Assembly (NCBI RefSeq): GCF_000196175.1
Contig: NC_005363.1
Coordinates: 496,001-560,000, forward strand
Direction: 5' to 3'
From: Bdellovibrio bacteriovorus HD100
Lineage (GTDB): Bacteria; Bdellovibrionota; Bdellovibrionia; Bdellovibrionales; Bdellovibrionaceae
DNA length: 64,000 nucleotides
Positions within the stretch are counted from its first letter, which is position 1. Each line of letters opens with the position of its first letter. The position numbers and the translations under genes are program-made. Below are positions 3,333 to 44,879 of the stretch, in pieces. Under the pieces are notes generated by a model. That model did no database searches. It saw only the letters and a program-made list of their open reading frames with translations, and had not been told where the DNA came from.

Positions 3333-3379
3333 GATTTCTGTTTCAGAATGACACAGCATTTAATACAATCAAAGTTATA

Positions 3380-3625
3380 GTTTCAGACACATGGACGTGT
3401 TTGAAACGCGGGGAGGGTGAGAAAGAGATCGCGAACCATGGAAGGTCAAGAGTCAAAAGTTTCTCGCAGGAAACAGGAGCAATAGGTCAGCAGAGATCAC
3501 GGAGTGATCAACACGAGCCGAAGCTACACTCTCAGAATCGAGTGCAGGATGCACATGATTCTCCGACTCTAACTCCCCTTTTTTTCTCTTTCAAAAAAGG
3601 TACATCCGTACCTTTTTCTTTTTTG
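3380..3625 (+). ncRNA. Candidate structured RNA between flgI and flgJ
   Basis: The 309 bases between flgI and the next gene hold no convincing protein gene but are rich in hairpins. An 11-bp stem lies at 3380-3390/3397-3407 (one G-T pair), a 6-bp stem GATCAC/GTGATC at 3495-3509, and a nested stem AGAATC..GTGCA/TGCAC..GATTCT at 3534-3562. A strong terminator ends it at 3593-3625. The order hairpins, terminator, gene could be a riboswitch or attenuator controlling the downstream flgJ-like gene, or a stand-alone small RNA made by processing of the flgI transcript. I could not match it to a known riboswitch consensus, including c-di-GMP-I. Confidence 0.45.
3593..3625 (+). terminator. Intrinsic terminator upstream of flgJ-like gene
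   Basis: A perfect 10-bp stem (AAAAAGGTAC, loop ATCC, GTACCTTTTT) is followed by a C and a T-run. It lies 17 bases upstream of the next start codon, so it would end transcription from flgI unless antitermination or a promoter downstream of it serves the flgJ-like gene. Confidence 0.75.
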
Positions 3626-39183: not shown

Positions 39184-39345
39184 ATCTAAGCTTCTATTGG
39201 GGCTGGTAAGGAGGTGATGCTTATGGTTAAAAACGTAGACATAACCAAGGCGGAGGTGACGTCCTCTTAGGACGCCTAGACCTTCGCCGAGGGTTCGAAA
39301 GAATCATAAACCTAAGAGCGACCGTAAGGTCGCTCTTCTTATTTG
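39184..39345 (+). ncRNA. Candidate small RNA with very strong Shine-Dalgarno and micro-ORF
   Basis: The 328-base gap before cheA holds a compact unit of about 160 bases. TAAGGAGGTGAT at 39207-39218 is complementary to 12 bases of the conserved 16S rRNA 3' end. Five bases later ATG 39223 opens a 15-codon ORF ending at TAG 39270 (MVKNVDITKAEVTSS). Overlapping it are stems GGTTA/TAACC (39225-39246), GGCGGAGGT/ACCTTCGCC (39249-39288, one G-T pair), and within that CGTCCT/AGGACG (39260-39274). A terminator closes it. It could be a leader peptide, a highly translated micropeptide, or an RNA that binds 30S subunits. I match it to no known RNA family. Confidence 0.5.
39314..39345 (+). terminator. Intrinsic terminator of the 39.2 kb small RNA
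   Basis: AAGAGCGACC, loop GTAA, GGTCGCTCTT, a perfect 10-bp stem followed by a T-rich tract (CTTATTT). Confidence 0.8.
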
Positions 39346-39428: not shown

Positions 39429-41165
39429 ATGTCGGACGAAAACAAACCCCAGGACAGCCAAGAGGTGGATCTTTCTGCCTTTATCGACTTTGAACAGGTC
39501 GAAGAGGTGTCCCGTGCGTTCTTCGAAGAGTCCAAAGAGATTCTGGAAGATCTCGACAACCTGATTCTCAAGCTGGAAAACAATCCGGAAGATCAGGATC
39601 AGGTGAATGTGCTTTTCCGGAAAATTCACACCATCAAAGGCAGCGTCGGCGCCGTTCCCGGCGGTCAGTTGTTGGGCTCTTTGTCACATGAATTTGAAGC
39701 CCTGCTCACCCGGATCAAACGGGAATCCCGTCCGGTCACCAAAAACTGCATTGATCTGTTCCTGAAAAGCTCCCGCATACTGAAGGTTCTTGCGCAAAGC
39801 CTCCGCGACAAGCGCGAAGTCTATCCGGAAGAACTCAGTGAAGCCATTGAGATTATCTCTGCCTATGGAGTCTTTGAATTCGGCGATGAATCCTCGCCGC
39901 GGGCGAATCGACCTGCAGCCAGTCGGGCGGTGTCTTCGTCAGACGACGAAGGCGTGTGGTTGAGTGTAAAACAGATGAACGAGCTTTTACGGTTGTCCGG
40001 CGAACTGCTGGTGCTTAAAAACTTTTTCCAGATGATGAATCAGACGGTGAACTTCCGGGTTCAGCCCGAGGTCTTTGAACGCCGTCAAAGCGATTTTGCC
40101 CAGAATCTGGGGAAGATCAGTGACCAGTTCCAAAGCCAGGTGCAGAGTGTGCGCAAGGAAAAAGCCGGAGACAGTCTTTCCGGTTTGCCGCTGCTGGTGC
40201 GTCAGGCTTCCACCGAATTGAACAAAAGTGTTCATCTGGAATTCACGGGATCGGATCTTCTGATCGACAAGGGACTTGGGAAAGACCTCTATGAATGTCT
40301 TGTGCATCTGGTGCGAAACTCCATCGATCACGGGATCGAGGATCAGTTTGAGCGCGCCGTGCAGGGAAAACCCACGATTGGTTTGCTGAATCTGGAAGTG
40401 CTGGAAAAGAACGGCGCTGTGCATGTGATCTTTAAAGATGACGGCAAAGGTCTGGATCGCGAGCGCATTCTTCAACGCGCCATTAAAAATGCCCTGGTGA
40501 CGGAAGAAGCCGCAAAGAGTCTTGCGGATGAGCAGATTTACAAATTTATCTTCCACGCCGGCTTCTCGACCAAAGAGAAAGTCACGACCATTTCCGGTCG
40601 TGGAGTCGGTATGGATATTGTTCTGTCCACGGTGGAAAGATACAAAGGGCGCATTCAGATTGACAACAATCCGGGAGCCGGTGCGACTTTCCATCTGGAA
40701 ATTCCGATCCCCCAGCATATTATGGTCGAAAGTGCGTTGCTCTGTGCGTGGAGTCACTTCCAGCTGGCAGTGCCATTGACGTCGGTGGCGCACATCACTT
40801 CCTGTGATGAACTGCAGGTCACCACGGTGGATCATCTGCGCTATTGCCAGTTCAGCGGCATGACGGTGCCGCTTCTGAACTATAGTGAGATTCTGAATCT
40901 GCGCACTTCGGTCTCCGACGAGGTTGTTCGCAACTCATCGGCAGTCTTTATTCGTATGAAAGAGGCGGTCTTTGCCCTGCTGGTGGATCGTATCGATGCG
41001 CAGACCGACCTGGTCGTAAAGTCCTTTGGCACTATGATCGGCGAGCAAAAAGGTTTCAAGGGCATTTCCATCCTGGCAGATGAAAAAGTGACTTATATTG
41101 TGGATCCGGAAAAAATGATGGCTTTGATGATGTTTGACCAGCAGAAGCACGAGGAGGCCGCATGA
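39429..41165 (+). CDS. cheA: CheA-type chemosensory histidine kinase
   Basis: The 578-residue kinase begins with an Hpt domain (phospho-His67 in IHTIKGS), lacks an evident P2 (CheY/CheB-binding) domain, and continues with the dimerisation helices (LSGELLVLKNFFQ), the ATPase domain (N box ECLVHLVRNSIDHGIED; DDGKGLD; GRGVGMDIV), and a C-terminal CheW-like domain (residues about 430-570). In chemosensory arrays CheA phosphorylates response regulators in response to receptors. It overlaps the next gene by 4 bases. No chemoreceptor or cheY is in the window, so this may be an alternative-output system rather than the main motility array. Confidence 0.92.
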   Translation: MSDENKPQDSQEVDLSAFIDFEQVEEVSRAFFEESKEILEDLDNLILKLENNPEDQDQVNVLFRKIHTIKGSVGAVPGGQLLGSLSHEFEALLTRIKRESRPVTKNCIDLFLKSSRILKVLAQSLRDKREVYPEELSEAIEIISAYGVFEFGDESSPRANRPAASRAVSSSDDEGVWLSVKQMNELLRLSGELLVLKNFFQMMNQTVNFRVQPEVFERRQSDFAQNLGKISDQFQSQVQSVRKEKAGDSLSGLPLLVRQASTELNKSVHLEFTGSDLLIDKGLGKDLYECLVHLVRNSIDHGIEDQFERAVQGKPTIGLLNLEVLEKNGAVHVIFKDDGKGLDRERILQRAIKNALVTEEAAKSLADEQIYKFIFHAGFSTKEKVTTISGRGVGMDIVLSTVERYKGRIQIDNNPGAGATFHLEIPIPQHIMVESALLCAWSHFQLAVPLTSVAHITSCDELQVTTVDHLRYCQFSGMTVPLLNYSEILNLRTSVSDEVVRNSSAVFIRMKEAVFALLVDRIDAQTDLVVKSFGTMIGEQKGFKGISILADEKVTYIVDPEKMMALMMFDQQKHEEAA

Positions 41166-41926
41166 GTGATTTCTTCGGTGATGACTTCACAGCGGAACTC
41201 AAAGCCTATTTCCTGGACAGCGTGACCAAGGAGATAGACAAGTTCATTGATCTGACCGATGAAAAATTATGGCGCCGGATTCTGTCCGAGGTTTCCGAGC
41301 AAACCCGCGCCTGGGCTGTGGATGCCAAAACAAATGAGTTCCTGCATCTGGCCGCGTGGCTGGAAGGTTTTGATGAAAAGAGCCGCAACCTGGAAGGGGC
41401 TGCGGAGTTGATCAAAGCCTTGAAGACTCTTAAGGGCTATGTAGAAGCTCTGGGTGTTGAAAAGGCCGATTCAGCGGATCTGGCCACCCGTTTTGCGCTC
41501 AATGCGCAGAACCTGCGGGAGATTCTGCTTCTGCACTGCCGCTTTGGCAGCCAGGAGTTCGCCGTTCCGATCTTAAGTGTGATCGAAATCAGCGGCAGGC
41601 TGCCGCTCTACGATCTGCCAGAGAAAAAAGAGGGCCTTCTGGGAGTCATTCCGTTCCGCGGTGAAGCGGTGCCGGTGGTGAATCTTCAGGATCATGGCTT
41701 TGCCCGGATGGATGCTGACAATTTCTTCTATGTGATTTGTGAAGAGCAGGGGGTTCGATTCTCTCTGCAGGTCACTCACACCGATGACATGATCAGCCTG
41801 AAAGAAGCCGATTTGCAAAATTTTGAAAACCAATCCTCCATGATGTCTGCGAACTTTGTTCACCAGTTTTTCATCAAAGACCGCCGCAGTATCATGGTTC
41901 TGGATCTTGAAAAACTGGTGGCTTGA
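41162..41926 (+). CDS. CheW-domain protein with helical N-terminal extension
   Basis: The 254-residue protein has a CheW-like beta-barrel domain at residues about 118-254 (LLLHCRFGSQEFAVPILSVIEISGRLPLYDLPEKKEGLLGVIPFRGEAVPVVNL). The N-terminal 115 residues are helical and not a standard CheW feature; they resemble a helical bundle and could be a decayed Hpt-type domain, although no phospho-His motif is seen. CheW adapters link receptors to CheA. It is fused by overlap to cheA upstream and to the cheD-cheB gene downstream (3-base overlap of stop and TTG/ATG). Confidence 0.85.
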   Translation: MSDFFGDDFTAELKAYFLDSVTKEIDKFIDLTDEKLWRRILSEVSEQTRAWAVDAKTNEFLHLAAWLEGFDEKSRNLEGAAELIKALKTLKGYVEALGVEKADSADLATRFALNAQNLREILLLHCRFGSQEFAVPILSVIEISGRLPLYDLPEKKEGLLGVIPFRGEAVPVVNLQDHGFARMDADNFFYVICEEQGVRFSLQVTHTDDMISLKEADLQNFENQSSMMSANFVHQFFIKDRRSIMVLDLEKLVA

Positions 41927-43485
41927 TGAACACTCATTATCTTTTTCCCGGTAAGCTGGCGGCCTTCAAAGAAGAGACCGTGATTTCCACTTTGCTGGGC
42001 TCTTGCGTGGCGGTGGCTTTGCATGACCCCACAACCCGCATCGGCGGCTTGAATCACTATCTGCTTGCCGATGGCATGCCGGACGAACGCGAGAACACGC
42101 GCTATGGGGCGCATGCCATTCCGTTGCTGATTGAAGAGTGTGTTCATCTGGGAGCCAATCGCGGCCGCCTGCAGGCCAAGATTTACGGCGGCGGGAATGT
42201 GATCAGTGTTTCCCAGATTGGGGAAGGCATTGGCAAGCGCAACATCGAGTTCGCGGAAAAGATCCTGCGTGATCACGGCATTCCGATCCTGGAAAGAAAT
42301 GTCGCCGGTGAATCGGCGCGCACAATTAAAATGAACACGGCCACTTTTGAAGTGCTGCACAACTCCTCGCAAGGGGGCAGTGTTGATAAACCTGTGGATG
42401 TCTCGGGCTTCAGACCCTTGGCTGTGGCCAAAAGCGTGAAGGTTCTGGTCGTCGATGACTCGGCAACCGTGCGAACTCTGTTCACGAATATCTTCACCAA
42501 AAGCGGACTGGAAGTTGTCGGTTCTGCGGCGGACGCCTATCAGGCGCGTGAAATGATTTTGAGCAAGAAACCCGACGTTCTGACTCTGGACATCGAGATG
42601 CCGAAGATGTCGGGTGTGATGTTCCTGGAAAAGCTGATGAAGCATCACCCGATCCCGGTGGTGATGGTTTCCTCTTTGGCCAGTACCGGTGAAGCGGCGA
42701 TGAAATCCCTGGAGCTGGGTGCTGTGGAGTTCGTGCACAAGCCTTCGCAGTTTGACCCGGCGGTTTTAAAGGACCTGGCGGGAATGCTGGTGGACAAAGT
42801 CCGCGCGGCGGCTTCGGTGAATATTTTGAAGAAACTTAAAGAGACTCCGGCCCCTCAGGAAATCAAGACCACCACCTTTGCGACTCCGACCCGTCGTCGT
42901 GCGGCTGAGTTGAAAGTGGTGGTGCTGGGCGGAAATGCCGGCAGTGCGGAAGCGCTGGAAAAGTTTGTCAAAGGCCTTGCGGCGGACACGCCTCCGGTGG
43001 TGGTGGCCTGCAGTACGGTGGCGAACTTTGTGACGGCTTTCATCAGCAAGCTGAAGGTGGGATCCAAAGTCACGCCGGTGGTGGGTAAAGACGGTGATTT
43101 CCTCAGAATGGGGCATGTTTATTTTGTGCCAGCCGAACACCATGGGAAAATCGTCACCGGTCCTCAGGGACCCGTGCTGAATCTTTCCAAAGGAGCTCCG
43201 GTTTCCTCACAATTGCCTTCGGCGAACGTGCTTTTCAACTCGGCGGCGCAGTCTTATGGGCAGGGTGTTTATGCCCTGCTGTTGGGTGGGTTTGGCACCG
43301 ACGGAGTCGATGGACTGGTGGAAGTGCAAAAACGCGGTGGCGCCAGCGTGGTGCAGCACCCGGAAGAAGCTCAATTTCCCTATGCTCCTCAAAAAGCGAT
43401 TGAACTGGGAGTGGCGGATGAGATACTTAAAGCCGACATGTTGGCGCATCACCTGATGCAGTATCGAAACCAAAACTTATACTAG
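41926..43485 (+). CDS. CheD-CheB fusion with inactive-looking methylesterase domain
   Basis: The 519-residue product joins CheD (residues 1-about 150), a receiver domain (about 171-290) and a CheB-type C-terminal domain (about 328-515). CheD, a receptor glutamine deamidase, keeps Cys27 (LGSCVAV) and His44 (LNHYLL). The receiver keeps its pocket (VVDDS) and Asp222 (TLDIEMP). The CheB domain has lost two of three catalytic residues: the Ser of GxSTGG is Asn337 (GGNAGS) and the His of QHM is Ser363 (ACSTV); the Asp is kept (GFGTDG, Asp459). Methylesterase activity is therefore unlikely. ATG 41926 overlaps the upstream stop; TTG 41923 is also in frame. Confidence 0.9.
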   Translation: MNTHYLFPGKLAAFKEETVISTLLGSCVAVALHDPTTRIGGLNHYLLADGMPDERENTRYGAHAIPLLIEECVHLGANRGRLQAKIYGGGNVISVSQIGEGIGKRNIEFAEKILRDHGIPILERNVAGESARTIKMNTATFEVLHNSSQGGSVDKPVDVSGFRPLAVAKSVKVLVVDDSATVRTLFTNIFTKSGLEVVGSAADAYQAREMILSKKPDVLTLDIEMPKMSGVMFLEKLMKHHPIPVVMVSSLASTGEAAMKSLELGAVEFVHKPSQFDPAVLKDLAGMLVDKVRAAASVNILKKLKETPAPQEIKTTTFATPTRRRAAELKVVVLGGNAGSAEALEKFVKGLAADTPPVVVACSTVANFVTAFISKLKVGSKVTPVVGKDGDFLRMGHVYFVPAEHHGKIVTGPQGPVLNLSKGAPVSSQLPSANVLFNSAAQSYGQGVYALLLGGFGTDGVDGLVEVQKRGGASVVQHPEEAQFPYAPQKAIELGVADEILKADMLAHHLMQYRNQNLY

Positions 43486-43493
43486 GATCTTCG

Positions 43494-44879
43494 TTGGAAC
43501 TGCAAAATTTTATCGGAGGGGCCTTTGTCCCTTCCGACAGTCAGAAAACCTTCGCAAAAATTTCTCCTTTTGATGGCACGGAACTGGCGCGCGTGACGGC
43601 GTCAGATGCCATGGATGTGATTAAAGCCATCCAGTCGGCAAAAAAAGCGGCCCCTGTGATGAAGGATATGCCTTTGTCTGACCGTGCCTCTTTGCTGTTG
43701 AAGCTGGCCTCTGCTCTGGAGGAAAAATCCGACGACTGTGCTTATCAGGAAGCCCTTCATCAGGGCTTGCCTCAAAGTTTTGTTCTGGAGCACAGTCTGC
43801 GTCCGGCCATCAGAATTTTGAAAGAAGTCGCGGGAAGTCTGAATCAGCCCCTGTCAGCCCAGGTGCTGCCGCAGCCCGTGGGGCTTGTGGGTATTATCGC
43901 TTCGTGGAACTTGTCTTTGCTATTGGTGATCGAGCGCTTGGCCCCGGCTTTGGCAGCGGGGAATGCGTGTGTGGTGAAGATCTCTGAGCTGTCGCCGATC
44001 ACGGCGCAGATTCTGGGTGAGGCTTTGCAAAAAGCGGAAGTCCCGGCAGGAGCCGTGTCTTTGCTTCAAGGGGATGCCGAAGTCGGCAAGGTCGTGGCTG
44101 GTCATCCCAGCATTCACGCGGTGACGGCTGTGGGGAAGACCTCCACGATGGAACAAATTGCCAAGGCGGGTCTTTCACAGTTTAAGAAACTGCAACTGGC
44201 TGGCAGCGTGAAGAACTCTTCCGTGGTGCTCTCCGGGACTGACTTTCAGGCGCAGATGGCAGAGATTCTGAAATCCTTCCTGGTGGGTCAGGGGCAGCTT
44301 TGCTGGAACAGCTCCCGTTTGTTCCTTTTGGAATCCATGTCCGCTGATTTTATTGAGGCGATGAAGACATATCTTGATAAGCTGGAGCCTTTGATGGACC
44401 CGAAGGGCACTTCTCCGTGGACGCCGCTGATCACGTCCGCCCGTCGCGAAGAACTGCAGAAGAAAGTTCAGGAAGGCAAAGTCGAACATGGGAAAGTATT
44501 GTCGGGTGGTGACAGCGGTCCGGGCCCGGGCTTTCACATGAAGCCGGTGATGATGCTGGATCTGCCGAACTGTTCGGTTCTGCAGCAGGATGAATTGCAG
44601 GGCCCTTTGTTTCTGATGACTCCGGTCAAATATCAGCATGAAATTCTGAAGTGGGCGAACACGTCTTATCTGGCTCAGTCCGCGGTGGTCTGGGGGCCTC
44701 AGGAAAAACTGGGTAAGGTGGCTTCGCAGTTGGATTGCGCGCAAGTGTGGCTGAATCAGTGGCAGCCCAATTCCCTCAACAATGTCTTTGGATTCAAACA
44801 ATCCAGCTTCGGAAATCCAGATCAAGCCTGGTCAGGCACCTTTTATTCGGATGTTAAGATCTTGACGGGGACATTGTAA
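43494..44879 (+). CDS. Aldehyde dehydrogenase-family protein with Glu-to-Gln change
   Basis: The 461-residue protein has the ALDH fold: oxyanion Asn in ASWNLSLLL, cofactor Lys in ACVVKISELSP, and the catalytic Cys270 in GQGQLCWNSSR. The general-base Glu, normally in ELGGK, is Gln234 (LQLAGS), and the adjacent Gly is Ala. Such a change usually slows thioester hydrolysis, so the protein may have reduced or altered activity. It starts at TTG 43494, 8 bases after the cheD-cheB stop, and may be co-transcribed with that operon. The substrate is unknown. Confidence 0.85.
   Translation: MELQNFIGGAFVPSDSQKTFAKISPFDGTELARVTASDAMDVIKAIQSAKKAAPVMKDMPLSDRASLLLKLASALEEKSDDCAYQEALHQGLPQSFVLEHSLRPAIRILKEVAGSLNQPLSAQVLPQPVGLVGIIASWNLSLLLVIERLAPALAAGNACVVKISELSPITAQILGEALQKAEVPAGAVSLLQGDAEVGKVVAGHPSIHAVTAVGKTSTMEQIAKAGLSQFKKLQLAGSVKNSSVVLSGTDFQAQMAEILKSFLVGQGQLCWNSSRLFLLESMSADFIEAMKTYLDKLEPLMDPKGTSPWTPLITSARREELQKKVQEGKVEHGKVLSGGDSGPGPGFHMKPVMMLDLPNCSVLQQDELQGPLFLMTPVKYQHEILKWANTSYLAQSAVVWGPQEKLGKVASQLDCAQVWLNQWQPNSLNNVFGFKQSSFGNPDQAWSGTFYSDVKILTGTL

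Follow-up and report, generated by a model that had tools for sequence, protein, structure and literature searches.

The locus lies in a 64,000-nucleotide stretch of the Bdellovibrio bacteriovorus HD100 genome (the window; its first base is genome position 496,001) and consists of a cheA-cheW-cheD/B operon on the forward strand, the final gene of which encodes a fusion of CheD, a receiver (REC) and a CheB domain. The first gene, cheA (39429..41165, 578 aa), specifies a P1 domain with His67 in an HTIKG motif, a weak P3, a P4 ATPase and a CheW-like P5, as judged by Pfam and invariant motifs. P2 is missing, as had been suspected in an earlier note made from the DNA sequence: Pfam gives no match and about 50 residues separate P1 from P3. 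P2 is absent from many CheAs, so its absence here does not disqualify the protein as a CheA kinase. The phospho-His of P1 (H67) and the ATP-site motifs of P4 are invariant in nine CheAs.

The second gene (41162..41926, 254 aa) encodes a CheW-like protein in which the CheW domain (Pfam; aa 119-254) is preceded by a modelled four-helix bundle (aa 4-100). This is the N-terminus that the earlier note had called odd. In Bdellovibrio the bundle has no phospho-His. When CheW itself is set aside, the structures it resembles most closely are CheA P1 domains (Z 12); helical bundles can score as high as Z 13 by chance, so that this match is only suggestive, and a profile comparison with Hpt is not significant. 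In two relatives outside Bdellovibrio (G003 and G066), Pfam recognises an Hpt domain in the corresponding region, with HTLKG or HSMKG as its motif. Homology of the bundle to CheA P1/Hpt is likely.

The fusion itself is a single open reading frame (41926..43485, 519 aa, or 520 aa if a TTG three bases earlier is taken as the start). cheA and the cheW-like gene overlap in ATGA, and the ATG of the fusion overlaps the stop of the cheW-like gene in TGATG, which suggests translational coupling across all three genes. An aldehyde dehydrogenase gene (Pfam; forward strand, 43494..44879) begins 8 bases downstream and is probably co-transcribed with the fusion. Aldehyde dehydrogenase genes also adjoin a CheD standing alone in five other genomes (G004, G011, G060, G061 and G063).

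The coordinates, domain order and key residues first read from the sequence agree with Pfam, alignment and fold matching. The CheD domain (aa 1-150, 41926..42375) matches its Pfam family above the cut-off (9.6e-25) and Thermotoga CheD (2f9z_C) at 1.9e-22, with a structural match of Z 21.8 and 1.8 A over 146 residues. The active-site residues C27 and H44 are kept, as proposed earlier, and T22 occupies the position of the catalytic Thr in the Thermotoga enzyme; all three are invariant in the orthologue alignment (A1). The receiver (aa 170-298, 42433..42819; Pfam Response_reg 6.3e-24, above cut-off) retains its phospho-acceptor D222 (42589-42591), which together with D177, D178, S249 and K272 is invariant across 12 diverse orthologues. 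An AF2 model has long flexible linkers on either side of the receiver and leaves it uncertain how CheD, REC and CheB are arranged with respect to one another (pTM 0.44).

The C-terminal domain (aa 327-519, 42904..43482) is a CheB by family (Pfam CheB_methylest 8.2e-33, above cut-off) and by fold, the model of residues 325-519 matching the 1chd chain (152-348) over 194 residues with an rmsd of 2.2 A and Z 29.2. Sequence alignment to Salmonella CheB (1a2o) and fold matching to 1chd and 3sft give the same constant offset of 173. The catalytic residues S164, H190 and D286 of the Salmonella enzyme are therefore equivalent to N337 (aat, 42934-42936), S363 (agt, 43012-43014) and D459 (gac, 43300-43302). 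The reading that Ser had become Asn337 and His Ser363, with only Asp459 left of the triad, was thus correct in its numbering as well as in substance. The orthologue alignment contains no alternative conserved Ser-His pair in the CheB site; no His is invariant, and the only invariant Ser residues, S432 and S439, correspond to S259 and S266 in active CheB, of which S266 is constant there too. Around the pocket, many residues that active CheB holds constant have drifted (T165, G167, Q189, H190, E213 and M283), and three residues, N337, P479 and F484, are newly fixed.

Orthologues were sought in 141 genomes of the order, in 369 of the phylum and in genome contigs, the contig scan using two peptide patterns from the receiver and being uninformative on absence from other phyla. 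The CheB site is present in 30 sequences, the window's own included, spread over several families of Bdellovibrionota (most Bdellovibrio species, G035, G066, G003, G087, G136, G080, G088, G273 and two further MAGs). S164 is replaced by Asn and H190 by Ser, Ala or Thr in all 30, and D286 is Asp in every one. Such a signature is far from chance, and a catalytic loss confined to one strain is ruled out. In every catalytic CheD-CheB fusion examined from the phylum, S, H and D are retained. In the phylogeny, the altered domains form one clade with support 100/100, which contains several long branches and lies apart from the active CheBs and from the catalytic fusions, pointing to a single origin. 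Between near species pairs (dS about 1.2 or less) the altered domain has a dN/dS of 0.017-0.041, close to the values for CheD and REC, and is under strong purifying selection. Alignment, conservation and phylogeny together support loss of the esterase chemistry, and by these sequence criteria the domain is a maintained pseudoenzyme, referred to below as pseudo-CheB.

The protein resembles ordinary CheB (Salmonella 1a2o, Thermotoga 3sft) in the order of REC and CheB_methylest, in fold (rmsd about 2 A) and in the phospho-acceptor and catalytic Asp residues. It differs in lacking the nucleophile Ser and the catalytic His, in its changes at M283 and T165, and in its position behind CheD. The catalytic CheD-REC-CheB proteins of Bdellovibrionota (G116, G039, G061 and others) share the three-domain order, the length and the setting in che clusters, but they retain STGG, His, TGMG and Asp, are located beside MCP-CheR-CheA and form a separate clade. 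No report of a CheD-CheB fusion or of a pseudo-CheB was found in open-access papers, nor any described lineage that keeps CheB as a fixed non-catalytic domain fused to CheD. The main text of a Tn-seq paper does not mention the operon genes.

No receptor, cheR or single-domain cheY occurs within the window, as first remarked, but this absence is local. The genome has 20 MCPs and two CheRs, as well as a canonical CheB and a CheD besides the fused one, with a canonical cheA-cheR-cheB cluster elsewhere. A second HD100 cluster (L199:4327-9261) combines an MCP with CheR, CheD and a protein that has three CheW domains, and includes neither CheA nor CheB. Outside Bdellovibrio, the operon is often adjoined by cheR or MCP genes, and in eight cases (G003, G066, G087, G080, G088, G273, L068 and L070) the next gene after the fusion is a catalytic cheB. 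An ordinary receptor-adaptation cluster is therefore taken to be the origin of the operon. Bdellovibrio and G035 lack the adjacent catalytic cheB at the locus. Two of the eight are MAG contigs labelled 'Betaproteobacteria' (L068) and 'Silvanigrella' (L070), which share this operon and its flanking genes; the former is probably misbinned.

Two Bdellovibrio species (G004 and G011) and a sister genus (g19) have CheD alone at this locus, the CheA, the CheW-like protein and the REC-CheB part having gone; the orthologous CheA is missing. Synteny is retained, with the lone CheD gene adjoining porin/imelysin/cytochrome genes, a HIT-protein gene or the aldehyde dehydrogenase gene, and in the tree the lone CheDs nest inside the clade of fusion CheDs. 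Topology tests reject the fusion CheDs as one clade (p-AU 0.038) and do not reject the lone CheDs as one (p 0.079), so the module has been lost between one and three times. The retention of CheD after loss of the whole kinase, coupling and receiver module suggests that the work is done by CheD and that the other parts control it; it also indicates that the REC-CheB arm is dispensable for CheD.

Partial forms exist as well. In G088 (L046:9255-10394), CheD runs straight into pseudo-CheB with no receiver between them and is followed by a catalytic CheB, whereas G196 has CheD-REC without CheB. The Bdellovibrio plasmid pBdHAGR1 (L033:7243-9056) has, near IS21-type genes, the cheW-like gene together with a CheD-REC that is cut just past the CheB-domain Asn; this is possibly a transposed partial copy. 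The parts are thus separable, which weakens any strict model of gating.

An active site that is dismantled yet tightly conserved suggests that the pseudo-CheB domain is probably a control or docking arm for a live CheD. We would put at about even the chance that REC-pseudoCheB is specifically a phosphorylation-responsive arm of this kind, doing for CheD the job done in Bacillus by CheC and CheY-P. On this reading the protein is a CheD, which both modifies receptors and binds them in adaptation, with its regulator built in. CheA would phosphorylate the receiver at D222. Receiver and pseudo-CheB together would keep the phosphorylation-dependent rearrangement of CheB while no longer cutting methyl esters, and would probably retain a receptor-facing surface. 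The rearrangement may then govern both the place and the ease of access of the tethered CheD to receptors. In Bacillus subtilis, CheD mainly binds receptors and CheC under the control of CheY-P and raises CheA activity, its deamidase being minor, and the availability of CheD is controlled by CheC and CheY-P (PMC3513319). The HD100 protein shares with the CheD of B. subtilis and Thermotoga maritima the fold, the T-C-H residues and, on the present proposal, phosphorylation-linked control, but the controller would be a covalent REC-pseudoCheB in place of a separate CheC, a one-chain counterpart of the Bacillus arrangement. A separate CheC was not found in HD100, where matches to the CheC motif sit in two CheX-like proteins. 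CheD binds CheB in Halobacterium, and Thermotoga CheD has methylesterase activity (PMC3579733); in Halobacterium salinarum, as would be the case here, CheD and CheB physically act together, although as two proteins with a catalytic CheB rather than as one chain with a dead one.

The earlier note had favoured a phosphorylation-controlled CheD switch, or a scaffold, over receptor demethylation. Loss of the esterase chemistry is supported; gating by the receiver pure and simple is not universal, given the variants in G088, G196 and pBdHAGR1; we infer that a switch or scaffold is the best reading left. The first competing explanation makes pseudo-CheB a decoy for, or partner of, catalytic CheB, competing or pairing with it at receptor sites to tune demethylation, with CheD merely carried along. 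The eight catalytic cheB neighbours, and the canonical CheB that HD100 has elsewhere, are what such an arrangement would call for. Yet in Bdellovibrio and G035 pseudo-CheB is still strongly constrained after the neighbour has been lost, and a CheD that stays where the module goes is no passenger. We consider this explanation unlikely.

A second possibility is that the receiver only drains phosphate from CheA while pseudo-CheB anchors CheD at receptor arrays, with no control of CheD by phosphorylation. It would suit a CheA without P2, a CheW-like partner with a P1-like bundle devoid of His, the flexible linkers around the receiver and an operon without CheY. A sink, however, could make do with a receiver and has no need of N337 and D459, both fixed throughout the 30 sequences, and it too seems an improbable account. 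More speculative is a role as a reader, in which the fixed N337/D459 pocket binds methyl-ester or Glu/Gln sites, leaving them uncut, and passes the receptor to CheD upon phosphorylation of the receiver. We regard this as rather a long shot; if true, pseudo-CheB would make the fusion a reader-eraser protein in bacterial chemotaxis.

That the CheB domain still acts as an esterase or deamidase through other residues is very improbable. The fold and D286 are indeed kept, and some Ser or Thr residues lie near the site in single species, but the two invariant Ser residues have counterparts in active CheB, no His is invariant, the H190 position varies between S, A and T, and M283 and T165 are changed as well. 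A decaying relic, as two lost catalytic residues and the truncated plasmid copy might suggest, is hardly credible, being contradicted by the low dN/dS, by a frame that is open in all relatives and by the uniform signature.

One point against the proposed arm comes from the genome's own receptors. Among methylation-type sites of the HD100 receptors, nearly all are Glu-Glu (48 of 59 motif matches), and there would thus be few Gln substrates for a deamidase; binding by CheD, or ester hydrolysis, may consequently matter more than deamidation. Gln at such sites in the receptors (L187-L205) is found mainly in L194, L197, L198 and L199. Six receptors (L187, L190, L191, L193, L194 and L200) end in a near-identical tail, VGTTDGF or VGTIEGF, which departs from the xZxxZ pentapeptide rule and is possibly a tether for an adaptation enzyme.

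CheB is the textbook adaptation enzyme, and the fusion would represent a natural separation of its regulatory and docking roles from its chemistry. It is also a candidate means of controlling CheD by phosphorylation in an organism that lacks a typical CheC. The organism, a laboratory predator, offers a test system in which species that have kept CheD and lost the module serve as natural controls.

Immediately upstream of the operon lies APsRNA2, an attack-phase small RNA (forward strand, 39188..39321; genome 535,188-535,321; PMC3627812, Table 2). A terminator-like hairpin at 39314-39337 stands 92 nt ahead of cheA. The 2013 paper reported no homologues of APsRNA2 outside B. bacteriovorus (PMC3627812); we find it conserved at 19 loci throughout the genus Bdellovibrio and in G035, and G011 has it ahead of its lone CheD as well. 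It folds far better than shuffled sequences (z -4.9), and a search of Rfam with the region gave only a sub-threshold match to MicX. A Shine-Dalgarno sequence and a frame of 15-17 codons within 39188-39345 are open in all 19 copies; the codon changes (3 synonymous against 64 nonsynonymous) do not support coding constraint, and the element was rejected as an open reading frame. APsRNA2 may act either as an independent sRNA or as an attenuated leader of the operon. A second RNA from the same study, APsRNA1 (PMC3627812), lies at 3375-3581 of the window, between flagellar genes.
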